A DNA stretch of 64,000 nucleotides from Owenia fusiformis (taxonomy: Eukaryota; Annelida; Polychaeta; Sabellida; Oweniidae): contig CAIIXF020000011.1 of the NCBI GenBank assembly GCA_903813345.2, positions 11,380,842-11,444,841 on the forward strand. The letters are read 5' to 3'. The notes beneath the pieces are model-generated. The model worked only from the letters and a program-made list of their open reading frames with translations, was not told where the DNA came from and ran no database searches. A program made the translations under genes and the position numbers. This document shows positions 5,110 through 61,300 of this stretch, one piece after another. Position 1 is the stretch's first letter, and the number at the start of each line of letters is the position of its first letter.

Positions 5110-5251
5110 AAAATTTTAAAGTTTTGGCTCAATTATTTTCAGTATAGCTACCCCCTGTGGCCTCTACATGCATCTCAGAGTCTCCCTGGAAAAATTCCTT
5201 TCATTATGTAATCTTATTTTCACACATTCTTCTACCCGTAGGGAACCTTAC

Positions 5252-5635
5252 CTCAGAGACCAAGCTAGTTTTGTAGACAGATGTGTCATACATCCACTGT
5301 TTACATGCGATGGCATCAACATTGCTATTGTTGTTTTGTAACCAGTTTTGAACATCATCATCAGTAACATCAGTATAATTGCGATCATACATTTCGCAAT
5401 TCGAATATTTTTTCCCATCGTGTGGTATAGAGATGTTCAGGTAAATATCCTGTGATAATGAGAGATTCTGTAGCGCAGAGGTTAGGCAGTAGTGGTCTGG
5501 AACAGCCGCCAGAAATACAATCCCCATAGTGTTGAAGGTGCCCCATATCCAGAACCAAGATAGCCAAAATAAAAGCCACACTTGATAGGGCCCTATTTCT
5601 CCTATATATTCTTGGAGTAGTTTGTCAAACTCCAT
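5252..5635 (-). CDS. SLC22-family organic ion transporter, first coding exon (partial)
   Basis: This exon encodes the N-terminal 128 residues of a major-facilitator transporter of the SLC22 (OCT/OAT) family, which moves organic cations, anions or carnitine across the plasma membrane. The start is the ATG at 5635: the protein opens MEFDKLLQEYIGEIGPYQ, the family's usual N-terminus. TM1 spans about residues 19-44, then a large extracellular loop has cysteines at 50, 80 and 111 and sequons at N57, N67, N86 and N102. It ends with the family block YDTSVYKTSLVSE and a donor (gag|gtaagg) at 5252/5251, phase 0, which matches the usual length of the first coding exon. No second exon was found in the 5 kb downstream, so the rest lies beyond base 1 or is lost. 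The substrate cannot be predicted. Confidence 0.85.
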
Positions 5636-5656
5636 AAGATGAGCTTTGTTGTCATA

Positions 5657-5686
5657 CACGTGGTAAAACGAGTACTCGTATATATA
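5657..5686 (-). promoter_or_regulatory. TATA-like box and E-box upstream of SLC22 ATG
   Basis: TATATATA (5679-5686) lies 44 bp upstream of the ATG at 5635, and the palindromic E-box CACGTG is at 5657-5662. The spacing would give a very short 5' leader. The alternative is that the real promoter lies further upstream with a leader intron. Position and motif are the only evidence. Confidence 0.25.
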
Positions 5687-9335: not shown

Positions 9336-9947
9336 GTTGTAACGTATATGTCTGCTTGTAACCTTTACACCCAGGTATAGCCTGACAACGGTAAAGTCAG
9401 ATACCGTTGTCACAAACGGCGGACATATCCGGTGTGCTTTAAGAGCATGGGCATTGATAGAGCCCATGTTTAAGAGCAAGCACAAAGTTATTGAAAGACA
9501 AAGCAGCGAACACACATTTAAAGTTTATTTGGAGTAAAATACGATTAGACAGTTTTCAAGTTTTTATACATGATATTCATTTTTAATCCTTACAAACGGG
9601 AGAACATCAATTTTGAGACTAAAACAACCTGTCATCGTTTCCACTTGATTCCCAGAGATAAAAACCCACCCGTTCCGTTGGTTTGTTTGTTTGTCCGCCT
9701 TTTCGGAAAACAACTGACTACAGCTGTATCTTATAGGAATACGCGTAATGACAAAAGGACGTCTGATTTAGAAGTGTCTTCGAAAATGGAAGTCATTTAA
9801 TAAAAAGTTGTCACATTTCAACTTTTATTCCATGTCTTCCAGCATAGGTTCAATGATCCATTTTCGAGGGCAGAGAATTGGGATAGAAATGTTACATTTT
9901 AGCAGACTAACAACATGAACCTGAAGGTACGCTATGATATGATACAT
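9336..9947. other. no feature seen
   Basis: No supportable gene. A short open frame at 9570-9800 shows no family pattern. Confidence 0.4.
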
Positions 9948-10136
9948 ATAGGTTATTTACTGGGAGGGATTGAATATGGGTTTTATTCCGAGGGACAATA
10001 TGATATTGACCGAAGGGTAATATGATATTGACCGAGGGAGCGCAGCGACCGAGTGTCAATATCATATAACCCAAGGTCAATATCATATTTTCCGAGGAAT
10101 AAAACCCATATTCAATCCCGACCAGAAATAACCTAT
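9948..10136. mobile_element. palindromic foldback, part A
   Basis: A 189-bp imperfect palindrome centred near 10042. The left arm runs ATAGGTTATTTACTGGGAGG, then TGAATATGGGTTTTATTCCG and CAATATGATATTGACC; the right arm is its reverse complement. The loop reads GAGGGAGCGCAGCGACCGAG. The same plan with a different stem sequence occurs at 58936-59074, and a left half at 47572-47660. It abuts a second inverted-repeat module at 10136. Confidence 0.75.
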
Positions 10137-10390
10137 TTATTCCATAATACACCCCTCTAAAATGCTACATTTGGATAATGCAAAAAACGGGAAAAAATAA
10201 CCGGGAAACCGAAAATAGGTTAATATGCTCCGATACGATTTTTTTCCCGGGGACAATACGATTTTTTCATGTAATACGCTCTAATACGATTTTTTTCCCG
10301 GGGACAATACGATTTTTTCATGTAATACGATTCAATACAATTTTTATTCCTTCATATTTCCCTGGGAAAACAGTAGTATTATGGAATAAA
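10136..10390. mobile_element. palindromic foldback, part B
   Basis: A 15-bp perfect inverted pair, TTTATTCCATAATAC (10136-10150) and its complement (10376-10390), bounds this module. Inside are two copies of a 51-bp direct repeat (about 10229-10332) carrying TACGATTTTTTTCCCGGGG and GACAATACGATTTTTTCATG. The open frame through the module follows from the duplication and is not a gene. Confidence 0.65.
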
Positions 10391-10417
10391 GTGATAATAT
10401 ATTACTTCTTAGTCCCT

Positions 10418-11346
10418 GAAAGGATGAGTCTGGGAATGAGTCTGGGTATCGACTTAGAGAATATTGAAAATTGTAATGTCTAAAAAACCAACTCAATCAC
10501 ACATATTATTAAACTTCGATATCTTCTTCTTCTTCTGAGATTACAAAAATATCAATTTGTATCACAATTGATGAAGAATATTGGCATCAAAGAGAGTGCA
10601 TATCACTTTATCAGAATTCAAAAAAAAATCAATGGCAAATATTAAATGAATTATTTATGCAAAAAGTTTGAAACATATCTTCCAAAACATTGGTTACTTT
10701 CTTTCTATAGACATTGAATGGTATTTCTGGATAAGTGAATTGGTGTTTATCTTGGTAATCAAGGGATTATAGTCACTAAAAGTTACTGAGCCTCCAGTTT
10801 TGAGACTTCAATTGTGTTGGTGATGTTACACATATTTCAGTCAAATTCATGCTGAGCACAACATTTTGGTTTCAATTTTATAATCTCTATACATGACCCT
10901 GGTGATGAAGAGTCAGAATCAGTCAAATAAAAACCGAAACCGGAAAACTGTGCTCATTGTGAAAACTAAAAGTGAAGCAACTTTTTTCTGATATTTCTTA
11001 CATCAAATGGCAGCCATCTTGTTTTCCCCCCTTCAAATTAAACTGGCGGGAAATTCAAAGATTTGAAAAAAATTTAATTCTTGAATATTTTTCAAAAATA
11101 TGATTTTCTTTTTAATTCTTCATGGGTCTGAAGTTATTTCTTCTTTGCATGTCATACATGTTGCCATTGGTGTTTTTTTCTATGATAGTGACTATTTTTT
11201 TGTTAAGATACTTATTCTGACTCTCATCAAAACTCATGAAAAAGTAAATATACTTATCAAATATAACTAGGACAGTAATAAAAAAAATATTTAACATTCA
11301 TTTGACTGAGGGACCAAAAGGGCATATACCCAGACACATCCTTTTG
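10418..11346 (+). mobile_element. ~0.93-kb MITE-like element, copy 1
   Basis: The whole stretch is present in inverted orientation at 59950-60902, inside a rhomboid intron. The two ends of each copy are short degenerate inverted repeats, AAAGGATGAGTCTGGG on the left and AAAGGATGTGTCTGGG read inward from the right. There is no open frame of significant length, so it is non-autonomous. Superfamily unknown. Confidence 0.75.
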
Positions 11347-12990: not shown

Positions 12991-14584
12991 AGAACAATGG
13001 CAACACCAAAGCGTAGCGAATCCCATCGAACAGAAATGGCTGGCATTTTTACAAACGAAATATATAGCAAATATCATGAAATAACACACATAAGAAAGGC
13101 CAACATTTTCAAAATGGTTGCTCACTAGCCAAGTTGTTATCAGAAGAAGTAATATGCTTTTTTTAGTATTCACATACCAAATATGCACAAAATCGCTTCA
13201 CTACTTTTCGAGTAAAATACTTTAAAATGGTGGCCATTTTTTAAAATGGCCACCTTCTACCAAAAGTGTCATTAGACGGTGTGCCGTGCTTATAGTATTT
13301 ACATACCAAATATGAACAAAATCGCTCAACCACTTTTCCAATTACAGTAAAATACGTTAAAATGGCGGTCATTTTTTAAAATGGCCACCTTCTACCAAAA
13401 GTGTCATTAGACAGTGCGCCATGCTTATATCTTATATTATTCACATACCAAATATGAACAAAATCGCTCCACTACTTTTCGAGTTATAGTAAAATACGTT
13501 AATATGGCGGCCATTTTTCAAAATGGCCACCTTCTACCAAAAGTGTCATAAGACAGTGTGTCATGCTAATAGTATTCGAATACCAAATATGAACAAAATC
13601 GCTCCACTACTTTTCAAGTTACAGCAAAAATCGTAAAATAACGAGTAAAGGCCGAGTAAAATATGTTTAAATGGCGGCCATTTTTCAAATTCCATTTTTT
13701 GTCACCAGAAGAAGTAATATGCTTTTTTTATAGTATTCACATGGCAAATATGAACAAAATCGCTCCACTACTTTTCGAATTACAGTAAAATACTTTAAAA
13801 TGGTGGCCATTTTTCAAAATGGCCGCCTTCTACCAAAAGTGTCATTAGACGACAGTGTGCCATGCTTATATTATTCACATACCAAATATGAACAAAATCA
13901 CTCCACTACTTTTCGAGTTATAGTAAAATACGTTAGAATGGCGGCCATTTTTCAAAATGGCCGCCTTCTACCAAAAATGTCATTAGACAGTGTGCCATGC
14001 TTATAGTATTCACAAACCAAATATGAACAAAATCGCTCCACTACTTTTTGAGTTAAAGTAAAATATGTTAAAATGGCGACCATTTTTCAAAATGGCGGCA
14101 AATTTTCAAAATGGCCTCCTCCTACCAAAAGTGTCATTAGACAGTGAGCCATGCTTATAGTATTCACATACCAAATATGAACAAAATCGCTCCAATACTT
14201 CTTGAGTTACAGCAAAAATCGTAAGATAACGAGTAAAGGCCGCCATTTTTCAAGATGGCTGCCATGTGCTATTTTAATTTCTACATTTCTAGCTTCATCA
14301 ATGTCCTTATATTTTTTTTACATTTAAAACATAATGCTATCACAGTTTTACATATTGCACCTAAATTACTGTAAAATCGGCACTTAAATGGCCGCCATTT
14401 TTAAATGAGCGGCCATTTTGAAAATCGGCTTTTTAGCAGAACTTCTACCCCCATAGGGTATATGTGTACAAAATATGAACAAAATCGGGCCAACGGTATT
14501 TGAGTTATTGCTCGGACGGACAGACAGACGGACGGACGGACGGAGGCGTTCCCTATATCCCTCCGAACTTCGTTCGATGGGATA
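12991..14584 (+). mobile_element. satellite-carrying transposon, copy A
   Basis: The left end reads AGAACAATGGCAACACCAAA then GCGTAGCGAATCCCATCGAA; the right end reads CTCCGAACTTCGTTCGATGG then GATA. ATCCCATCGAAC is shared in inverted orientation by both ends. The interior is about seven copies of a ~136-bp unit containing ACCAAATATGAACAAAATCG, CTCCACTACTTTTCGAGTTA, palindromic GGCGGCCATTTT/AAAATGGCCGCC and GTGTCATTAGACAGTGTGCC. A (GGAC)n microsatellite at 14511-14545 precedes the right end. No transposase is present. Confidence 0.8.
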
Positions 14585-15580: not shown

Positions 15581-18060
15581 ATGCTTTGTAGATACAAACA
15601 CTGCAAACAGCTGAGCCAAATCATTGATCCACTCCAAAACATCACAACCAGGGTAGAAATTGTTATGACCTGAAAGTACTAAAAAAAGGAAAAAAGTCAG
15701 CAATGATTTGACTTTTTTCCTTAAAAGAAATGAGTAAATATACCCATCTCACTGAAATGGCCATTTTCAGATATGAGTACATTTACATATTACTTTTAAG
15801 AGAATGCATGAACATGCAATATGTCACCACTGGCCATGTGTTAAAGATGCATTTAGTTCCAGTAAGCCGAACACTAACTGATTACTGCCATCAAGAAGTT
15901 TCGTCCACTCACCAGTGTGAGAATATAACAATATGTCAACACTTCTGTAGTGACATAAAAGTCAAATCATTGCCCAGTAAGTACAGTTGATTAAAAACTA
16001 TAAACAAAAATCATAGCATTACTGAATTAATGGTCAAATTGTTGCTTTAAAAGCTAGCATTATAATATTCAAATGATCAAGACCAAATTGATAGAACTAG
16101 AAATATTTTGTTGGTATAAGTCCCGGGTATAAGTCTCAGAATGAAAATTACCAAACACATGCAAACAGAACCATTGTTCCCTGTGTTGCACCCAAGAACC
16201 TGCTTTGCTGGAAATACAAAAAATATGCTGTAATACTTGTTAAACTTAATATAACAATTTACATAAATTGCCCAAAATTAAAATCGAACAGAATGGGAGG
16301 GATGGAGTAAGGTAGTAATATATCTTAACTAAGTAATAAAATATTGCTTCCAGCTGTTCCCTGTGTGGCTGCTACCAAGGTCATTCTTCTGGTGGACGTG
16401 TGATTCTGTGCAAGGAGAAAATTCATTTATGAGTAACTCCTGCATGAAACAGTAGTAGTTGTAGTCCAGAACATTAGTAGTCTTTTATCTTCTTCACAAC
16501 ACCTACATTGAGAAAATGATTTAATTGACTACCTTAACTCCAAAGCATGCAAGGGATTATCATTTATTGCAAAAAAATAACCTTAAAAATCTGAACAAGT
16601 CACCTTTGTCAATCAGAGTCTAGATCATAAATACCTAGACGGTTGATTGCTTTTTGGACCAAAACATGGTCGCATTTACACTGACCTCAAAGCAAGAAAA
16701 AACAAGTTAAATTGAAAAATTGATGAAAGTGAAGATCATCTACCAACTCGCACCAAAAAAGAGAATGGAAGTCGAAAACTGAGATTAACATACTAAGGTA
16801 TGTTAAGTCTCAGGTGAAAATGAGTTTACAAAAAAAAAATATGAAGACAATATTTTCCAAATATGGCACACATTTCTTCCATTTTGATATAAACCAGGTG
16901 GATTCCATTATTCTTTCATTTCAGAACATAGAATCTGTTAGGAAGCTTTCAGGCCAACACACCTTAACAAAGGATCAAACAATGGGTGACCATCCCTTCG
17001 CTCATGTCGTATGCTGTCTAGAGAGATTAAGAAGAATAACAAGAATGACATCCTCGGCCATGCATAATTAGGATACATCACATTAAAAAGATGAAATACA
17101 AGACCATACCACTATCAATTCCCAATAGTATCTTTACTGTAACACTGATAAGCAATGTCTACCTACCTAAAGAGTGCAAGGTAACATGTATCAACCCCGA
17201 GGCCATTCCGTACAGATCCAAGTGGAATCTTGCTGCGTCCTCACAAGATCTCTGGATCACACTATATTCGTCATAGCCAACTACTAACATTACAATACCA
17301 GTAAGTAAAAAAGAGTGGACCTTCACCAGAGATCGACAATACCCCTCCAGAACGACCCAATGCATGCCGGCACCACAGCATGCATTGAAGAAAGAAAATT
17401 CAGAATACCTCCTCCTGGTGGGTGCAAGACCCATCATTTTCACTCACTAGTAAAGAATGTTTTCGCCAGCCATCAGAATATAGGCGAAACAAAGAACCAA
17501 GCTCAACAATAAGAATCCAACATGGAAACTGTTGGTCGGGACTTACAAGGAATCGATACCTGAAACCCATGCATCCAGAGATTGATAGACACTGATCATC
17601 AGAATCACAGTGGAGGTACTACGAGGAACATCAAACGGTATGACAGAGTAAACCACTGCTCTCAATGCAATGGATCAGAATGACCCATGCTCAACAATGC
17701 CATTCTTAGATATTCCTCAAAATCAATCGGGACAACATAAAACATGAACAATGGAAGGCCTCCCAACACTTGATCCAGTGTTAAGACATGCTTAGCAATC
17801 CAGCCTCATAGCAGATTCCAGGTTCCTTCACTCCAGAATAATGGGTTGGCCAACAAAATCCACTGGTTCAATCAAAATGGAAGGTGTCCCACTAAACCAG
17901 AAGAATCGGCCGCTCCTAAATATCATAGAAAACCATAGATGGAAAACATGTCTAGCTGGCAGATGACCCCATATGGAATGACTAATAGGATAACTCAATA
18001 AATTTACTTAACTTGGTGACAGGATCATCGCGATGAAGCTCATCTTTAGGTAGTGGATTC

Positions 18061-31581: not shown

Positions 31582-33305
31582 TCTAGAGTCCATTTCACTG
31601 CTTCATTTCGTCAGTAGAACGGCAAAAATAAGAAATTGGGAGACCATTGTGCAATAATATATGGAAAAGTATATTCATAATGTACATGAATGACATTTGT
31701 ATATTTCAGATTTTTTAGTTTTTTGTGCAATAAGCCTGTGCCGTCTTGTAATTTGAAGAATTTCAGCCATGTTAATCTTATTGAAAACCAGAACAACGGC
31801 AACGCCAAAGCGTAGCGAATCCCATCAAACAGAAATAACTGACATTTTTACAAACGAAATATATAGCAAATATCATAAAATAACACACATTAGAAAGTTG
31901 TCATCAGAAGAAGTAATATGCTTTTTTATAGTATTCACATGCCAAATATGAACAAAATCGCTCCACTACTTTTCGAGTTATAGTAAAATACTTTAAAATG
32001 GTGGCCATTTTTCAAAATGGCCGCCTTCTACCAAAAGTGTCATAAGACAGTGTGCCATGCTAATAGTATTCGAATACCAAATATGAACAAAATCGCTCCA
32101 CTACTTTCCAAGTTACAGCAAAAATCGTAAAATAACGAGTAAAGGCCGAGTAAAATACGTTTAAATGGCGGCCATTTTTCAAATTCCATTTTTTGTCATC
32201 AGAAGAAGTAATATGCTTTTTTATAGTATTCACATGGCAAATATGAACAAAATTGCTCCACTACTTTTCGAGTTACAGTAAAATACTTTAAAATGGTGGC
32301 CATTTTCAAAATGGCCGCCTTCTACCAAAAGTGTCATTAAACAGTGTGCCATGCTTATATTATTCACATACCAAATATGAACAAAATCGCTCCACTACTT
32401 TTCGAGTTATAGTAAAATACGTTAGAATGGCGGCCATTTTACAAAATGGCCGCCATCTACCAAAAATGTCATTAGACAGTGTGCCATGCTTATAGTATTC
32501 ACAAACCAAATATGAACAAAATCGCTCCACTACTTTTTGAGTTAAAGTAAAATATGTTAAAATGGCGACCATTTTTTAAAATGGCGGCAAATTTTCAAAA
32601 TGGCCTCCTCCTACCAAAAGTGTTATTAGACAATGAGCCATGCTTATAGTATTCACATACCAAATATGAACAAAATTGCTCCAATACTTCTTGAGTTACA
32701 GCAAAAATCGTAAAATAACGAGTAAAGGCCGCCATTTTTCAAGATGGCTGCCATGTGCTATTTTAATTTCTACATTTCTAGCTTTATCAATGTCCTATAT
32801 AATTTTTTTTACATTTAAAACATAATGCTATCACAGTTTTACATATTGCACCTAAATTACTGTAAAATCGGCACTAAAATGGCCGCCATTTTTAAATGAG
32901 TGGCCATTTTGAAAATCGGCTTTTTAGCAGAACTTCTACCCCAATAGGGTATATGTGTACAAAATATGAACAAAATCGGGACAACGGTATTTGAGTTATT
33001 GCCCGGACGGACGGTAAGACGGACGGACAGACAGACGGCACACGTACGTACGTACGGACGGACGGACGGAGGCGTTCCCTATATCCCTCCGAACTTCGTT
33101 CGATGGGATAATAACATGGCAGAGAAACATCCAAATATAAGAGGCCAACCACTTTATAAGCCAAACTAGAAGCAATCAAAGATATACAAATGTCATTCAT
33201 GTACATTATGAATATACTTTTCCATATATTATTGCACAATGGTCACCCAATTTCTTATTTTTGCCGTTCTACTGACGAAATGAAGCAGTGAAATGGACTC
33301 TAGAA
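31582..33305. mobile_element. foldback MITE split by a nested transposon
   Basis: Arms 31582-31708 and 33180-33305 are near-perfect reverse complements, starting TCTAGAGTCCATTTCACTGC and containing AATATATGGAAAAGTATATT and AATGACATTTGTATAT. The same family is intact at 36442-36845. Between the arms lies satellite transposon copy C. Confidence 0.8.
31789..33110 (+). mobile_element. satellite-carrying transposon, copy C
   Basis: Both ends are present (AGAACAACGGCAACGCCAAA and TTCGTTCGATGGGATA), with six ~136-bp units inside and a (GGAC)n/(GTAC)n microsatellite at 33003-33075. It is very similar to copy A, including a unit starting ATCAGAAGAAGTAATATGC. It is inserted in the MITE at 31582-33305. 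Confidence 0.8.
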
Positions 33306-45907: not shown

Positions 45908-46471
45908 CATAAGGACCAATGCTTTGGGCCAAGTCAATGACAACACAACACTTCCACGGAGACCAAATGAAAGATGAATGAAAGACCCATTATACGATGT
46001 CATGGTTGTATACTAAACAAATGTTATCAAATGTTCGGAAATGGCTTTTCCATGAATCTCAATGTCCAATAATATGAATATATAGTAATAATGTGTACAG
46101 TACAGTTCTAATAATAATAGATTAATAATGATAATGAAAACAGTAATACTTCAGTGAGTTGAATATAACTTGAAATAACTGTTGCTCGCTGTGTACTGGC
46201 TTAGAATGCAACTGACCCTAATCTGCGCTACCTAGGTCTGGGACCGCAGACAACCACGTGATTCAGGATCCACCTACTTAATATTCATTATTCATATAAG
46301 GCAAGCGATACGGTCGTCCCACAAAACACTTTATGATGCATAAAAAATATTTGTGTCTCTTCCCTTGATCCGCTCAGTTGCTAATTATAACGGAACATAA
46401 TACATTCATGTTGGTGAAATTAATTTATTTAATATAAAATAATAATATCATTAGCAAGTTGGGTAGTCATT

Positions 46472-46686: not shown

Positions 46687-46711
46687 AAATGTTTTTATTA
46701 TTTCGAGTTAC

Positions 46712-47110
46712 ATGACAGATATCTGTATGGCCATATTGCCAAGCAGAAGCCTATTACTTCTCCCCTCATGTACGACAATGACGATTGGAATGCGAAATCA
46801 ATGCGTCTTTCAATGTGTCTTTCAACAGGACAACGCTCCTATTCATACTGCGAATCAGGTGGAAGGGCGATTCTTTCAAAGCAGCGTTAACCAAATGAGA
46901 TGGCCACCATATTCCGCAGACCAATCACTTATCGAAAATATGTAGTATTATGTTAATTATCAGATACACAACCTCCCAATACACAACCTCCGCGAGCTAG
47001 AAATTGCAGTTCAAAGAACATGGGTTAATATCCCTGGGCGACTCTCATCAGGAGACTCTTTGAAAGCATACCCGGCCAGCTAGAGTTCGTACTCTTATCC
47101 TAAATCGCAG
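46712..47110 (+). pseudogene. mariner/Tc1-type transposase remnant
   Basis: The frame from 46712 contains FQQDNAPIHTA (the second catalytic Asp region) and WPPYSADQSLIEN (the SPDLNPIEN region with the last acidic residue), then a stop at 46942. After a frame change the C-terminal block resumes (LRELEIAVQRTW, then LIRRLFESIPGQLE). The N-terminal DNA-binding domain and first Asp are absent. It is a dead fragment of the DDE transposase family and may or may not be related to the MITE beside it. Confidence 0.75.
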
Positions 47111-47571
47111 TTATCCCATTAGATATTGATGATGAACTTGTTGACTTCATATTAGGATCATCTTTATTACATTTCAGCTTATTTAAACTAGGTTTACACC
47201 ACGAGTGCAATCCCATGCTAAATTTCGACAGATTTTCATATTTTGCCTATTTTCGGCAAAGTTAAGCATACAAAATGTATCATGATAATGGACAACAAAA
47301 CAGCAATATGGCAATCATGAATTCAATATGTTATGTTTTATGTTTGCAAAACTCGCAAATATTTTTTGATAATATGTAAAACAAAAAAATAGAATCAATC
47401 GACAGATTTCCACACTAAAATAATGAACTGAATGGAGTATTTTGAATTTTTTATTTTCTTATTCATTAAGTGTAGCAATTTTTAGAACAGTTGCAGCAGA
47501 GAGTTAACTGTGCTGCACATACACATCTACATACAGTCATGCATAATATAGAGAAAATATAGAGTTATTTA

Positions 47572-47660
47572 ATGGGAGGGATGGAATATGAATTTTATTT
47601 CGAGGGAAAATATAATATTGACCAAGGAAATAATATATTGACAGAGGGCGACAAATTCGA
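47572..47660 (+). mobile_element. left half of the two-part palindromic foldback
   Basis: TGGGAGGGATGGAATATGAA, TTTTATTTCGAGGGAAAATA and TAATATTGACC follow the left arm at 9957-10010. The right arm and module B are missing; instead GGGCGACAAATTCGATCACC and CG-rich sequence follow. Confidence 0.6.
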
Positions 47661-47884
47661 TCACCCAAGGGAAAGATCAATACCCGGTGATTTCAGCGGG
47701 AAGTGGCGTTTCGTTCAGTGGATGAGCTGCGCGCGCACGCATAAATGTGATTATCCAATAGAGGGCGCTATCACAAACAAGTACTGCACGAACCGATAAA
47801 TTCCCGGGTATTGTAACGCCCTTGGATCACCACCATCAATAACCTAATTACGGTATAATGATCTCAAATAAAACATCACTGATG

Positions 47885-48700
47885 CCCCCAGCAGGGCCGT
47901 CAGATGGGGGGGGGGGTGCGATGGGTGCGACCGCACCCCCCTTGACACCCCCCATAGTCTCATACACTTTTAAAGTGCCCAGAAAGCACCAAATAGCATC
48001 TTAGAATTGTAAAATTTTCTAGAGGGAGTGGGCAACCCCTAACAGCCACCTCAATTCAATGGAAAAGTTCTGAATTTATTTTATGTATTGTCTCAGACAC
48101 TTTTAAAGTGCTCAAGTGCCCAGACATAATCACATAGCTCCTTGATATAGTCAATGTTTCTGGGGGACTAACACTTGCTTTCCTTCGGGAAATTGTGATT
48201 TTTTTTCAATTTTGTAATTGACTCATACACATCCAAAGTGCCAAGAAAGCACCAAAATAGTGTTTTAAAATTGTAAAATTTTCTAGGGGAATGGGCCACA
48301 CCTCACACCCAAAACAAAACAATTGAAAAGTTCTGAATTTATTTTATGTATCGTCTCTTGACATCCCCCAAAATATTGTGATTTTTTCAAATTTTTTATT
48401 GAATCATACAATTCGAAAGTGCCCTGAAAGCACCAAATAGCATTTTAAAATTGTAAAATTTTCTAGGGAAGTAGGCCACCCCTCACATCCCCCACAAAAC
48501 AATTGACAAAAATTCTGAATTTATTTCATGCATTGTCTCAGACACTTTTAAAGTGCCCAGACTTCATCAAATAGCACCTTGATATGGTCAATGTTTCTGG
48601 GGGACAGGTATGGGGGACAAACACTTGCTCTCCCTCTGGCACCCTAATCCCACCTCGCCCTCTTGCACCCCCCTTTGACACCCCCCAAGAATTGAAAAAA
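47885..48700 (+). repeat. ~190-bp tandem repeat, about four copies
   Basis: Units contain CACTTTTAAAGTGCCCAGA, AGCACCAAATAGCAT, TTGTAAAATTTTCTAGGG and AAGTTCTGAATTTATTTTAT. The left edge AGCAGGGCCGTCAGATGGGG, poly-G and CACCCCCC runs suggest the end of a mobile element. No coding frame. Confidence 0.65.
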
Positions 48701-48739: not shown

Positions 48740-49555
48740 CAAATATTATCTGCCCAACACATGTATACAAGGTGTCCCGAAAGTATGGGGCCCCCCTAGG
48801 AAGATATATTCCAGTGTCCTCATTGTATGTGTCATATATCATTTTAAAGCTTATCCAAAGTTACATTGATTTGCCAAGTATCATGGTTTAACTCCAAAAT
48901 GGGAAAAAGTTACAGTCATTTTAAAAGTTAGTGTTTTGTCAAAATAAAGTTCAATTTTACACCACATAACTTGTCAATGTGTCCCCCCTTGGCCATGTTA
49001 ACAGCAGCAATTATTTTCAGATATGACCTTAAAAGCCCTTCAAATAGGGTTGTGGAATTTTATAACCCTCTTAAAACATGTTAAGGGACTTTAGAAGAGT
49101 TTGCTTAGAGTTTCTACCCTCACCATTCTCTTTTTGCAACTCAATATCCATCCAACCCGAAAAGAATTGCTGCTGTTAAGATGGCCCGGGAGGACACATT
49201 GACAAGTGATTTGGTGTAAAATTGAACTTAATTTTGACCAAACACTAAATTTTAAAATGCCTGTAATTTTTTCACATTTGAGAGTTGAGCCATGATACTT
49301 GGCAAATCAATGTAACTTTGGATAAGCTTTAAAATGATATATGACATATACTATGATGACACTGGTATATGTCTGCCTAGGGGGGGGGGGGCATACTTTC
49401 GGGAAACCCTGTACACAATATATTTCCATTTTTGTGATTTAACAACACGGGGTCTATGGGGAATCTCCACGACCTAGAAGTCACATTTTCAAAGAAAATT
49501 AAAGTTTCAAAGTTGATAAACTCTTCAAAACCACATTTCAAAGACTGAAGAAACA
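48740..49555 (+). mobile_element. second copy of the 30.4-kb repeat, split by a MITE
   Basis: 48740-48765 (AATATTATCTGCCCAACACA) and 49414-49555 (GGGGTCTATGGGGAATCTCC, GACCTAGAAGTCACATTTT) together match 30418-30570, the interior of the MITE at 30236. Confidence 0.75.
48768..49411. mobile_element. mariner-type MITE with TA duplication
   Basis: Ends CAAGGTGTCCCGAAAGTATG and (inward from the right) CAGGGTTTCCCGAAAGTATG are inverted, with arms running about 290 bp. TA flanks both sides (48766-48767, 49412-49413). The uninterrupted relative at 30418-30570 lacks the element. TA target sites and the ends fit the Tc1/mariner superfamily; no transposase is inside. Confidence 0.85.
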
Positions 49556-55336: not shown

Positions 55337-58300
55337 CTGAAAAGCATAAGAAAAACAGTAATAAATATCTTGTGCTACATACACTGTGTACATCAGTTTG
55401 TTTGTTACAGATATGTACAGGTAATGTGCTTTGTAAAATGAGTTTATGATAAAAATGACATCCTAACCAGAACAACGGCAACGCCAAAGCGTAGCGAATC
55501 CCATCGAACATTTTTCAAAAGGGGCACCTTCCACCAAAAGTGTCATTAGACAGTGTGCCATGCTTATAATATTCACATACCAAATATGAACAAAATCGCT
55601 CTACTACTTTTCGAGTTATAGTAAAATACGTTAAAATGGTGGCCATTTTGAAAAATGGCCGCCTTCTACCAAAAGTCTCATTAGACAATGTGCCATGCTT
55701 ATAGTATTCACATACAAAATATGAACAAAATCGCTCCACTACTTTTCGAGTTATAATAAAATACGTTAAAATGGCGACCATATTGAAAAATGGCCGCCTT
55801 CTACCAAAAGTGTCATTAGACAGTGTGCCATGCTTATACGTATTCACGTACCAAATATGAACAAAATCGCTCCACTACTTTTCCAGTTATAGTAAAATAT
55901 GTTAAAATGGCGGCCATTTTGAAAAATGACCGCCCTCTACCAAAAGTACCATTAGGCAGTGTGCCATGCTTATACGTATTCACATACCAAATATGAACAA
56001 AATCGCTCCACTACTTTTCGAGTTTTAGTAAAATAAGTTAAAAATGGCGGCCATTTTTCAAAATGTCCACCATTTTAGACAGTGTGCCATGCTTATAATA
56101 TTCACATACCAAATATGAACAAAATCGCTCTACTACTTTTCGAGTTATAGTAAAATACGTTAAAATGGTGGCCATTTTTCAAAATGTCCGCCATTTTTCA
56201 AAATGGCCACCTTCTACCAAAAGTGTCATTAGACAGTGTGCCATGCTTACAGTATTCACACACCGAATATGAACAAAATCGCTCCACTACTTTTCGAGTT
56301 ATAGTAAAATATGTTAAAATGGCGGCCATTTTGAAAAATGACCGCCCTCTACCAAAAGTACCATTAGGCAGTGTGCCATGCTTATACGTATTCACATACC
56401 AAATATGAACAAAATCGCTCCACTACTTTTCGAGTTTTAGTAAAATAAGTTAAAAATGGCGGCCATTTTTCAAAATGTCCACCATTTTTCAAAATGGCCG
56501 CATTCTACCAAAAGTGTCATTAGACAGTGTGCCATGCTTATAGTATTCACATACCAAATATGAACAAAATCGCTCCACTACTTTTCGAGTTACAGCAAAT
56601 ATCGTAAAATAACGAGTAAAGGCCGCCATTTTTCAAGATGGCTGCCATGTGCTTTTTTAATATCTTCATTTCTAGCTTTATTAATGTCCTATATAATTTT
56701 TTTACATTCAAAACATATTGCTATTACAGTTTTACATATTGCACCTAAATTACTGTAAAATCGGCACTAAAATGGTCGCCATTTTGAAAATCGGCTTTCA
56801 AGCAGAACTTCTACCCCCATAGGGTATATGTGTACAAAATATAAATAAAATCGGGCCAACGGTATTTGAGTTATTGCCCGGACGGACGGACGGACGGAAG
56901 TACGTACGGATGTACGTACGGAAGTACGTACGGACGGACGGACGGAGGCGTTCCCTATATCCCTCTGAACTTCGTTCGATGGGATAATTATAAGATAAAA
57001 ACTGTGCAGTGGCTTGTATAGCATTTTTATATGTCATCACCAAACCAAGATTCCAAGACCTGTCATACAATTCATAGCTCCTGTAAGGGGGGGGGGGGTG
57101 GAGAATTGCTAATGGGGCAGGGACTTTTAAATTTCTAGCATGATCTAGCAATGAGAGTTACACGTTAAAGAGTATAAACATAAAGAGTTACCTGCTAAAA
57201 AGCCTCCAAAATGTGCAGCAAAACCTACACTCCCCTTGGAATCCCCTGTAAACCTCTGATATATAGCAAGCCCTGTATCAGCCCCACCTGTAGAAGAACA
57301 ATAAGAACCTGTTGATTTAAATCAACTAAGATACATCTATCAAATCAGTTTGGTTAGGAATGAGTGAAAGTTAGAATAGTGAGAGGCCAAGAAGGATGGG
57401 AATTGTTTTATGAATTCATGTTTGTAATTATCCAAAAAGAATAAACATGTTATCCTTTATGTGTAGTGAAATGTTATATTGGCTTACCTAGGACCAGGAT
57501 GAGTGTCAATCTTACTGGAGCACTGCTGATAAATTCCACCACTCCATCTTGGCATCCTCGTGTCATCTCCTTCCAATTCTGAAAGTAATAATCAATTAAC
57601 TACAGCTTTTGGGAGCACACTGTAATGATGATTTTGCCATACAAAATTAGGGAGTTGAATGTTACCTTGATCTGATATGTGTCCAGTTAATTCCATTACA
57701 ACTACTACTTTCCAGTGAATAACACCAGGGAATGTGTTTGATATTTCAAAAATCATATTAGTCCTCTCAATCCTGGTCACAAAATAGTATTTATCTGGAT
57801 TCACTTCATCAATGAATTGGAAGCGATGGATTTTGACTGGTAAAGAGAAAAATGTGTTCAATTTAGTTCAATCCTTTTTTGCTTCTTCTAATTAACTTAT
57901 CTTATTAACATTTTTTGTCTTTACCATAATTACAGCTGCTAATTGTGCCCCTATGAGGGCATAACAGCCTCCACTGGCACCAGCCAACATAGTTGTTGTA
58001 TCAACTACAGAATGGCCCAGAGACCCTATAATAGCCATGCAACATATTAACTGTATTAGTTATATTATCTATAGAGAGACTAAGAAAGTCACAACAGGCA
58101 GTCAAGATAACAATGAATCAACTATAGGTTAGTCAAGAATCTGCAAACCAGCAAAGAAATATATATATACAGGTGTGGCCAAAAACTCAATATTCCAGTA
58201 TTTGACTGTGTAAAAGGTTTACAGTCATAGGGATGTGAATGCAAACATTTCAAGGAAATATTTGATGGTACGATTTTACATTTTAGATATGCCCTCTATA

Positions 58301-61300
58301 TTGGAAGCAGATGGACATTTGAAACAGTCTATCAGATGGTGCCTACACTGTTGTAAATATATTTTTTATTACAGATAAGCCTATCAGAGATCTCTAAATA
58401 TATGTTCATGTTCTGGTAACCATATTTTGTGACTGTTTCATTGTTTCAGATCTTATTCAATAACTATTACTTACCTCAAATGTTTTAACTGCTCATAAGT
58501 CTATACATTATGATTTTAAAATGTTTACACTATAATCCATACTCAAGATAAAAATTGAAGCAGATGGGAGATAAAGTAAATTATAAATCTGAGTCCCAAT
58601 GAACATTGAAAAAACAAAATCTTTAATTTATGGTCTTAATCTAGCACATTACTGATCTTCCTAACCAAAAGTAAAATCTGTGAAAAATCCAATGTATGGT
58701 ATAGGAAGATTTTCTAATTTTTTCCTTAATGCTGAATTAGCTTTTCTTCCTCTTATGTATTTTGATATTTCTGATATTCTATTTTTTGCCTGGAAATAAT
58801 TTCAGAATATACATCCTAATCTATATGTCTCTGACAGACTGTTTCAGATATCAATCTGGTACTACTATTTGAGACTAAATATCAGTGTAAAATTGATGCT
58901 ATGAATATTATCCTGAGAAATGTATATACATAAGGGTTATGTACTGGGAGGTTTTGGATATGGGGTTTATCCAGAGGGAGATATGCATATCTACCTGAGG
59001 GACCGTAGGGACCGAAGGTAGATGTGCATATCTCATGAGGGATGAACCCAATATCCAAACCGACCATACATAACTGCTTTATCCTATACCAAGTAGAATT
59101 TCCTAATTTTCTTTCAATTTTTTTTTAATATTTCAATTTTTTAATTTTTTTTCAATTTTTTAATATTTTTTTTCTTTTTTCAATTTTTTCTTATTTTTTC
59201 AAACTTTTTCTTCTTAGCGGGAAGATATGCCCTGGGGCGGGAGATATGAGGGGAGATATGGAGGTTCAGGATATGGAAACCTCAAAATCAGGATACAGGA
59301 TATATCTTACCAACTTATCTCCCTAAAACTCTACTTGGCATAGGATAAATGTATATATATTACATGTACATCTACTTTACTTCAGCCCCCAAGTGTCAGT
59401 GTCTGGTATAACCTTTCTTATCAAGAAATCCTTCAAGAGCCGTCATCCCATTTCAGCAACAATTACAAAAGTGACTTCTGCACCTCCATCAAATATATTT
59501 TTAAATCAAAGTCATTGTGAAATAATAAAAAATATTGATGTTTATGGCCACCCTGTTCGTGCACATTTGGGTCAACCTGCACAAACAATTTGGACAGATA
59601 TAATTAAGGGATATGGAATATCATTGCACATACAGAAACAACCCTGGTAACTTAAGAAATAATTCATATTATTGTAAAACTTCAACCATTAGAAAAAATT
59701 CATGCAGTACTAATCTTGTAAAATAAATTACAAAACATGCCTTATTGAACAAAACATGGCTGAATTCCTCATTAAAAATCAGCATAACTATATACAAGCA
59801 AAACAGGAAAGATGAGTTATGCATAAATCAGTGCTTCCTCAGAATTCTTTTCCAATGTTTGTAGATATTGTAATTTTATCTTTTTTGACTCAGACATTTC
59901 GGAACGTTTTCAAATTCTGCATGTGAGAAGATTTAATCTGTGCAATTTTGAAAAGGATGTGTCCGGGTATATGCCCTTTTGGTCCCTCAGTCAAATGTAT
60001 GTTAAATATGTTTTTTATTACTGTCCTAGTTATATTTGATAAGTATATTTACTTTTTCACGAGTTTTGATGCAAAATTAACCCCCTGCTGAGAGTCAGAA
60101 TAAGTATCTTAACCAAAAATAAATAGTCATTATCATAGAATAAAAACCTCAATGGCAACATGTATGACTTGCAAAGAAGAAATAACTTAAGACCCATGAA
60201 GAATTTAAAAGAAAATCATAATTTTGAAATATATTTAAGGATTAAATTTTTTTTCAAATTTTTGAATTTCCCGCCAGTTTAATTTGAAGGGGGAAAAACA
60301 AGATGGCTGCCATTTGATGTAAGAAATATCAGGAAAAAAGTTGCTTCACTTTTAGTTTTCACAATGAGCACAGTTTTCCGGTTTAGGTTTTTTGACTGAT
60401 TCTGACTCTTCATCACCAGGGTCATGTATAGAGATTATAAAATTGAAACCGGAATGTTGTGCTCAGCATGAATTTGACTGAAATATGTGTAACTTCACCA
60501 ACTCAATTGAAGTCTCAAAACTGGATGCTCGGTAACTTTGAGTGACTATAATCCCTTGATTACCCAGATAAACACCAATTCACTTATCCAGAAATGCCAT
60601 TCAATGTCTATACAAAGAAAGTAAGCAATGTTTTGGAGGATATGTTTCAAACCTTTTGTATAAATATTTCATTTAATATTTGCCATTGATTTTTTTTCAA
60701 TTCTGACAAAGTGATATGCACTGTCTTTGATGCCAATATTCTTCATTAATTGTGATACAAATTGATATTTTTGTACTCTCAGAAGAAGGATAAGATATTG
60801 AAGTTTAATAATATGTGTGATTGAGTTGGTTTTTCAGACATTACAATTTTCAATATTTTCTAAGTCGATACCCAGACTCATTCCCAGACTCATCCTTTCA
60901 AATCCTAATATGAAACTTTTGAATTAATTCTTAAATTCTCTACATTAAAGTTATATGATCATTCCTTGGAGTAATTCACCTCTACTAGAATCATACAAAA
61001 TTCCTAGTTTAGTATTTCTCTTCATAATGGGTCTCCAGTTTATCAGCATACACATGCAACTGTTTAGACTATTCATTTAATAAGAGACATGTTTTATATG
61101 TCTCTGCTTTAATATTTCTCCAAAACGTTTTGCTAAATGTAAAATGTTGAGATATTTAATGGACTGATCTTACATTGCATGAGTTTACTTATTATTATAC
61201 ATGTATGATGGAACTGTTTCAATAGTTTAGAATCATATGGTTATGTTGAACTCACCTGCTACCACTCCAAGGGAATAAACAAATCCCACCCTCCACCACT

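Follow-up and report, generated by a model that had tools for sequence, protein, structure and literature searches.

Among described mobile elements, the HINE and DINE-1 elements come closest to the layout reported here. In the available part of their description, mite HINEs (HINE-Mo) have a palindrome of 5-10 bp and a 3′ repeat located 38-60 bp from the 3′ end, and are without an IR (PMC4067079), and the accessible text on oyster HINEs (Cg_HINE) gives 11-12 bp subTIRs, an IR, tandem repeats, and a 3′ palindrome (PMC7492417). The Fusarium Helitron2-type elements offer another point of comparison, as their 5′ ends (FoHeli1/2) are C-GAA-G hairpins in the available portion of that report (PMC5148889). 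G-A pairing in folded DNA also occurs in other settings: For the early-promoter hairpins of phage N4, the accessible part of a review traces the difference between the two strands to a triloop that is closed by C-G and contains a sheared G:A pair (PMC4496689), and the AGCGA/GGGAGCG tetrahelical DNAs show G-A pairing as well, as far as the available text on them goes (PMC5442326, PMC4275592).

The element that we describe has in common with HINE/DINE-1, in the portions of the sources at hand, inverted repeats of 11-15 bp (here 15 nt in copy 1, and 24 nt at 92% in copy 2), central tandem repeats, and a palindrome after the 3′ repeat; copy 1 has, in addition, a possible IR close to its 5′ repeat. 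In that group, tandem repeats or a microsatellite occupy the center in some copies, and the short IR, complementary to the 5′ repeat, is a trait of DINE-1 and the oyster HINEs. Unlike the mite HINE as described there, its palindrome measures 141-185 nt, which is more than 10 times longer, and its 3′ repeat lies too far from the end; unlike HINE/DINE-1 as a whole, it shows regular GA/GA steps and carries the repeat motif inside the palindrome as well. With FoHeli1/2, going by the available text, it shares asymmetric inverted repeats and a terminal hairpin (with a C-GAA-G loop there), but FoHeli elements have a short hairpin at either end, whereas here one very long hairpin occupies one end (PMC5148889). 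The N4 hairpins, as covered in the accessible part of the review, likewise combine a C-G closed triloop with sheared G:A pairing and have one strand that is more stable and protein-recognizable, yet they are short phage promoter elements and no transposon (PMC4496689). The words GGGAGCG and AGCGA are also shared with tetrahelical DNA, which, in the text available, needs several word repeats, while there is one apex per element here (PMC5442326, PMC4275592).

The original prediction recognized no described family with this layout. Since the minus-strand order of the parts matches that of HINE/DINE-1/Helentron elements in the available parts of two reports (PMC4067079, PMC7492417), this statement holds for the size of the palindrome and not for the order. 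No Helentron-type palindrome of such size appeared among the literature titles and abstract openings listed (subscription papers and repeat databases were outside the scope), nor did these titles and openings describe an element matching the apex words. The words "hairpin" and "foldback" are absent from the accessible part of a review of bivalve transposons (PMC10294476).

RESULTS

A long hairpin abuts a pair of inverted repeats

The window, i.e., the whole 64-kb stretch of DNA analyzed (G+C 35.7%), has the appearance of animal DNA and contains the unit as two full copies and one broken copy (Table 1). In both full copies, a long hairpin (part A) is followed, after one base in copy 1 and two bases in copy 2, by a pair of inverted repeats (part B). 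This two-part plan had been predicted for the first locus, and it was borne out by the fold and by a B pair that is 100% complementary over 15 nt. The predicted loop, GAGGGAGCGCAGCGACCGAG, was found at the apex; part A proved to be a hairpin of 185 nt instead of the 189 bp claimed; and the same A-then-B plan was recovered at the second locus.

With DNA parameters, the copy 1 hairpin folds at −65.9 kcal/mol on the plus strand and −64.0 kcal/mol on the minus strand (z = −15.0 and −17.3), and the copy 2 hairpin at −41.6 versus −35.9 kcal/mol (z = −10.7 and −9.9), with 0 of 200 shuffles as good on each strand of either copy. RNA parameters gave −119.9 (plus) versus −108.9 (minus) for copy 1 and −88.1 versus −69.3 for copy 2, so that the plus strand is the better-folding strand in both copies with RNA and DNA parameters alike; it contains one G.T pair in copy 1 and three in copy 2. 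The whole A+B units reached RNA-fold z scores of −12.7 (copy 1) and −8.7 (copy 2), unmatched by any of 100 shuffles each. Judged by an alignment of the two hairpins over 77 nt (79% identity, E = 1.3e-11), copies 1 and 2 are homologous, diverged relatives. The "different stem" attributed to the second locus is, accordingly, correct as regards differences, but the stems are not unrelated. A block of ~22 nt is present in both arms of the copy 1 hairpin. The extra inverted copy of the terminal repeat in copy 1 has P = 0.005 against random 62-mers, and copy 2 has no such match (P = 0.66).

A third, broken copy, which was missing from the original prediction, retains the left arm of hairpin A (77.5% identity to copy 1 over 129 nt by BLAST, E = 3.3e-20). 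Most of its right arm is replaced by ~175 nt of other sequence (47655-47829) that has its own inverted repeats (47678-47693/47798-47813; 16 nt, 88%). An 8-base inverted search from the possible B start (47830-47900) to 49500 found no B pair for this copy, yielding just two scattered words at 49276 and 49387; A adjoins B, then, in two of the three copies of A within the window.

Parts A and B also have a word in common. TTTATTCC occurs eight times in the 64 kb, counting both strands, and five of these occurrences fall within copy 1; TTTATCC likewise occurs eight times in the window, with three within copy 2, where the right stem has TTCATCC at the matching word. The word changes in step between the stem and the B ends, as would be expected of a protein-binding site from the sequence pattern.

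Just upstream of copy 1, an imperfect hairpin (9787-9870, by eye) holds another TTTATTCCAT word at 9824. We considered a larger element extending left to TTTATTCCATG at 9824 and dropped it, because by eye the word lies within this other imperfect hairpin; the inverted-pair search found no counterpart of such a leftward extension for copy 2.

Table 1. Positions of the hairpin (A), the inverted-repeat pair (B), and associated features in the three copies.
Feature	Position	Strand	Details
Copy 1, part A, long hairpin	9950-10134	+	185 nt; DNA fold
Copy 1, part A, left arm	9950-10041
Copy 1, part A, triloop	10042-10044		GCA
Copy 1, part A, right arm	10045-10134
Copy 1, apex GAGGGAGCGCAGCGACCGAG	10034-10053	+	GA/GA, GG/CC, GA/GA, GC/GC, GCA triloop
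Copy 1, GA/GA site 1	9964-9965, partner 10120-10121	+	RNA-parameter fold
Copy 1, GA/GA site 2	9990-9991, partner 10094-10095	+	RNA-parameter fold; 3x2 loop with DNA parameters
Copy 1, apex GA/GA sites	10034-35/10051-52 and 10038-39/10047-48	+	RNA-parameter fold
Copy 1, part B, left inverted repeat TTTATTCCATAATAC	10136-10150	+	3′ subTIR if element read on − strand
Copy 1, part B, right inverted repeat	10376-10390	−	5′ subTIR if element read on − strand
Copy 1, core tandem repeat	10221-10350		Period 51, 2.5 copies; TRF score 209
Copy 1, extra inverted copy of terminal repeat	10343-10356	+	14 nt, 86%; 20 nt from right B end; like DINE-1 "IR"
Copy 1, TTTATTCC	9982, 10096, 10136, 10343, 10383		Left stem, right stem, B left, inner IR, B right
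Copy 2, part A, hairpin	58935-59075	+	141 nt; fold; GTA triloop 59005-59007
Copy 2, GA/GA sites	58948-49/59062-63, 58997-98/59014-15, 59001-02/59010-11	+	RNA-parameter fold
Copy 2, part B, left inverted repeat	59078-59101	+	24 nt
Copy 2, part B, right inverted repeat	59326-59349	−	24 nt, 92% complementary to 59078-59101
Copy 2, core tandem repeat	59104-59215		Low-complexity, T-rich; TRF rows
Copy 2, TTTATCC	58966, 59078, 59343		Left stem, B left, B right
Copy 3, part A, left arm only	47563-47654	+	nhmmer E = 6.6e-21
Copy 3, right-arm base, probable remnant CCACCATCAATAACCT	47830-47845	+	Read by eye

The predicted 2x2 internal loops of the hairpins are GA facing GA

Tandem GA/GA beside GNA loops is a known pattern of sheared G.A pairs, and triloops of the C-GNA-G type are known above all for their stability in DNA. 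In the RNA-parameter folds of the two hairpins, all seven 2x2 internal loops (four in copy 1 and three in copy 2) consist of 5′-GA-3′ facing 5′-GA-3′. In copy 2, the middle site belongs to a larger internal loop; the pair alignment shows it as GA/GA. Both copies have the apex GA-GG-GA-NN-GNA-NN-GA-CC-GA. Its closing NN/NN bases are GC/GC and CC/GG in copies 1 and 2, respectively, and a C-G pair closes the loop (GCA or GTA) in both. Allowing up to three mismatches, this apex pattern matched twice in the 64-kb window, versus 0.05 matches expected. The GA/GA pattern exists on the plus strand only; the minus strand shows TC facing TC and folds less well. On the modeled folds, the GA/GA loops and the C-GNA-G triloop would fit sheared G.A pairs on the plus strand.

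As a control, we took 24 other inverted-repeat pairs of the window with 1724 pair columns, which are the 25 listed of the 58 pairs found, minus the one (I18) that is copy 2 itself. Among the 31 two-base mismatches of this control, 4 were GA/GA or TC/TC, and all 4 were TC/TC from one tandem array near 56 kb. Fisher's test, for which the four sites aligned in both copies were used, gave P = 0.0013 with this array and P = 3e-5 without it. By eye, the left arm of copy 3 still has GA at three of its four corresponding sites.

The isolated 27-nt apex did not stand out in the same way. In the DNA model, it folded at −0.5 kcal/mol (plus) and 0 kcal/mol (minus) for copy 1, where 194 of 200 plus-strand shuffles were as good, and at −3.0 (plus) and −1.7 kcal/mol (minus) for copy 2, where 76 of 200 were; no stability of the isolated apex beyond that of shuffles was predicted with DNA parameters on either strand. 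Because the DNA model finds almost no apex stability, which speaks against a stable apex, this notion rests on what is known of GNA loops and sheared pairs, which the model may leave unscored.

Some stem differences between the copies are paired

A pair-level alignment of copies 1 and 2 contains 54 pairs formed in both, of which 45 are identical, 5 differ on both sides, and 4 differ on one side; the latter four still pair, G.T counted. All five changes in the 5′ arm coincide with a change in the 3′ arm (13 3′-arm changes over 66 aligned columns), with a hypergeometric P of 1.4e-4 that is optimistic, as the alignment leans to pairing by construction. When the arms were aligned by sequence only, we found 26 and 23 changed columns of 76, with 9 changed on both arms, i.e., no excess (P = 0.37), an alignment that we judged to have misaligned the arms. 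By eye, the exchanges in the outer stem are T-A to G-C, G-C to T-A, A-T to T-A, and A-T to G-C, and both arms of the outer stem are shortened to match. The pair of words offered as an example of such change, AATATGGGTTTTATTCC versus GATATGGGGTTTATCC, is correct, and the opposite arms follow the change apart from a single T.G wobble, a single G.A mismatch, and a bulge. The statistical case for paired change, from two copies, is modest. The question originally raised, whether selection for a folded form or conversion between the arms is at work, leans toward the folded form on the pair alignment and on the persistence of the GA/GA sites, with two full copies and a sequence-only P of 0.37 to set beside it. 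Simple arm-to-arm conversion would tend toward Watson-Crick pairs at the GA/GA sites, and their persistence hence argues against it. Together, the GA/GA and triloop pattern and the shared word suggest that A and B form one unit under structural selection.

Apex-like sequences in other genomes, and the surroundings in the window

For the apex GAGGGA-NN-GNA-NN-GACCGA in bacterial and archaeal genome contigs (at least 120 stretches with 131 distinct contexts, some genomes contributing several), the closing bases were complementary in 92 of 134 among the matches listed, compared to 1 in 16 by chance. In viral contigs scanned with the seven inner bases left free (98 matches, 82 distinct contexts), complementary closing was found in 13 of 20 GNA-loop contexts versus 5 of 62 contexts with other loops (Fisher P = 9e-7). 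These three counts are unbiased, whereas a further count of 177 complementary closing pairs in 232 is biased because one closing pair had been fixed in the pattern. Stems outside the apex were just slightly more common than with shuffled partners (7.3% of 177 had a stem score of 7 or higher, versus 3.0%). These sequence matches suggest that the prokaryotic and viral apex reflects convergence on a stable hairpin with sheared G.A steps, not descent. Ranked by flank palindromy, the best 30 of the 104 IMG/VR stretches with the apex pattern included none like the present element; GGTTATNTACTGGGAGG matched 3 IMG/VR stretches, in which ~270 nt of each lacked a matching hairpin (by eye); and a scan of IMG/VR with GGGAGGGATNGAATATG matched 21 stretches. 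In the stretches read, no second genome carrying the element turned up.

Several other features of the window were noted. Repeats around CATACCAAATATGAACAAAATCGCTCCACTAC with AAAATGGCGGCCATTTT palindromes occupy 55500-56500 and also occur at 13300-14000 and 32200-32900; those near 56 kb have TC/TC two-base mismatches in three of the inverted pairs examined (four sites). A 29-nt word of a satellite in the window had no matches in IMG/VR. A perfect 55-nt inverted repeat, with 109 nt between its arms, starts at 46470 and ends at 46688, directly beside a possible Tc1-like DDE fragment. Between 15470 and 28000, open reading frames (ORFs) with near-identical translations (at 15712, 20372, and 24986 on the plus strand and 17162, 21821, and 26444 on the minus strand), along with SSSS/LPVG-like tandem repeats, hint at segmental duplication. 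The minus-strand ORF at 5207-5686 is similar to SLC22 transporters of animals (in phmmer, 20 distinct sequences matched up to E = 0.1, the best being an OCT2 chain with E = 1.5e-05), and a Pfam search with this ORF returned no families at E = 0.001 or 0.01.

DISCUSSION

We read the unit as a non-autonomous rolling-circle-type transposon (Helentron/Helitron2 type) with an enlarged, structurally constrained terminal hairpin, a reading to which we give about an even chance of being right. On the minus strand, the parts follow one another as a 5′ inverted repeat starting with TTT, an inverted copy 20 nt inward (in copy 1), the tandem core, the 3′ inverted repeat, and the palindrome, which lies directly beyond the 3′ inverted repeat in both full copies. 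This is the HINE/DINE-1 order, which supports the Helentron-type reading. The shared word, the GA/GA loops, the better fold of the plus strand in both copies, and the C-GAA-G hairpins at the Fusarium Helitron2-type 5′ ends also count in its favor. With such a layout the element probably works much as a non-autonomous Helentron does, and we describe it as Helentron-like rather than as a member of that group. Against this reading, at least 142 nt in copy 2 and 185 nt in copy 1 separate the 3′ repeat from the end. Outside the element, the flanks of copies 1 and 2 are alike (left, P = 0.005-0.013; right, P = 0.016-0.032). The true ends may therefore be situated beyond the positions given here, and insertion into TT without target-site duplication, as in Helentrons, could not be demonstrated; the left flank of copy 3 resembles neither (P = 0.29-0.80). 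The direct repeats flanking each element are weak (P = 0.02-0.08), and Helentrons should be without them. No Rep/helicase was found among the 10 ORFs scanned of the 118 stop-to-stop ORFs of at least 70 codons in the window. In the Helentron reading, the GA-bearing strand would be the bottom one. Given this conflict, either the bottom strand matters, or the orientation based on anatomy is mistaken, or a different kind of constraint is at work.

These same data can be read differently. B could be a cut-and-paste MITE or fold-back element of another superfamily, with terminal inverted repeats (TIRs) and a DDE transposase, and A either an accessory hairpin or a fold-back end that evolved on its own. 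The matched inverted repeats of B, the weak direct repeats around the whole unit, the 58 inverted pairs (≥30 nt, within 1 kb) in the window, and the possible Tc1-like DDE fragment at 46688-46942 (DDE_3, E = 0.004, under the Pfam cut-off) would all fit. We nevertheless consider this rather unlikely, because TIR elements end in their TIRs, whereas A lies outside B and directly abuts it in both full copies, and because the motif common to A and B changes jointly. The symmetry might also have arisen without selection, by arm-to-arm conversion or hairpin-templated copying, with neutral differences between copies. Copying between arms could explain the ~22-nt block repeated in both arms of copy 1, and the full copies number just two, with no excess of paired change in the sequence-only alignment; yet conversion would create pairing precisely where all seven 2x2 loops are GA/GA and where the left arm of copy 3 has kept GA at most matching sites, which makes a neutral origin improbable.

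Selection at the RNA level, where a plus-strand transcript forms a long hairpin as a small-RNA precursor or as a signal for RNA-level transposition, appears distinctly improbable to us. The plus strand does fold better as RNA, with a strand gap that is larger with RNA than with DNA parameters, it has the G.T pairs described above, and the region 9900-10450 gave weak Rfam matches to miRNA precursors (best MIR2630, 58.7 bits, E = 4.8e-11). However, all 11 Rfam matches are far under their gathering scores (the best with 58.7 versus 144 bits), leaving none at the gathering score in the whole window, and the two best families match both strands, as any long hairpin would. We rejected a microRNA precursor as a candidate, as we judged these subthreshold matches to reflect the hairpin shape alone. 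The C-GNA-G triloops, with their reputation as DNA loops, also speak against an RNA-level signal. The N4 hairpins, in the available part of the review, may be compared (PMC4496689).

Returning to the rolling-circle reading, what the sequence itself shows is the anatomy, the motif common to A and B, the pattern of GA/GA loops and GNA triloop, and the paired differences between copies. The enzyme, the strand, and the route we infer, as follows. As single-stranded DNA, the plus strand of the hairpin, with its Watson-Crick segments, tandem G.A joints, and C-GNA-G cap, would form one rigid rod. The hairpin may form in the single-stranded DNA made during rolling-circle transposition, where a partner Rep/helicase would bind the TTTAT(T)CC sites of both the ends and the hairpin stem and would read the folded hairpin as a signal for stopping or for the end of the element. 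Without the fold, a source would go uncopied, and the arms and repeats would then change together in active lineages. The pattern suggests a role for the folded strand itself in the movement or copying of the element.

A broader proposal, which we regard as quite unlikely, is that the transposon end is recognized by DNA shape, namely, as a single-stranded, G.A-jointed rod whose sequence drifts freely while fold and joints stay, and that the recurrence of its apex module in bacteria, archaea, and phages points to a common DNA hairpin on whose use single-strand enzymes have converged.

Should the GA/GA and GNA architecture prove consistent across many copies, this would be a mobile-element end that is selected as folded single-stranded DNA with non-Watson-Crick joints, and covariance between the stem and the inverted repeats would also indicate the transposase binding site. 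Related elements could then be sought by a signature that depends little on sequence, and the strand used in rolling-circle transposition could be tested directly.
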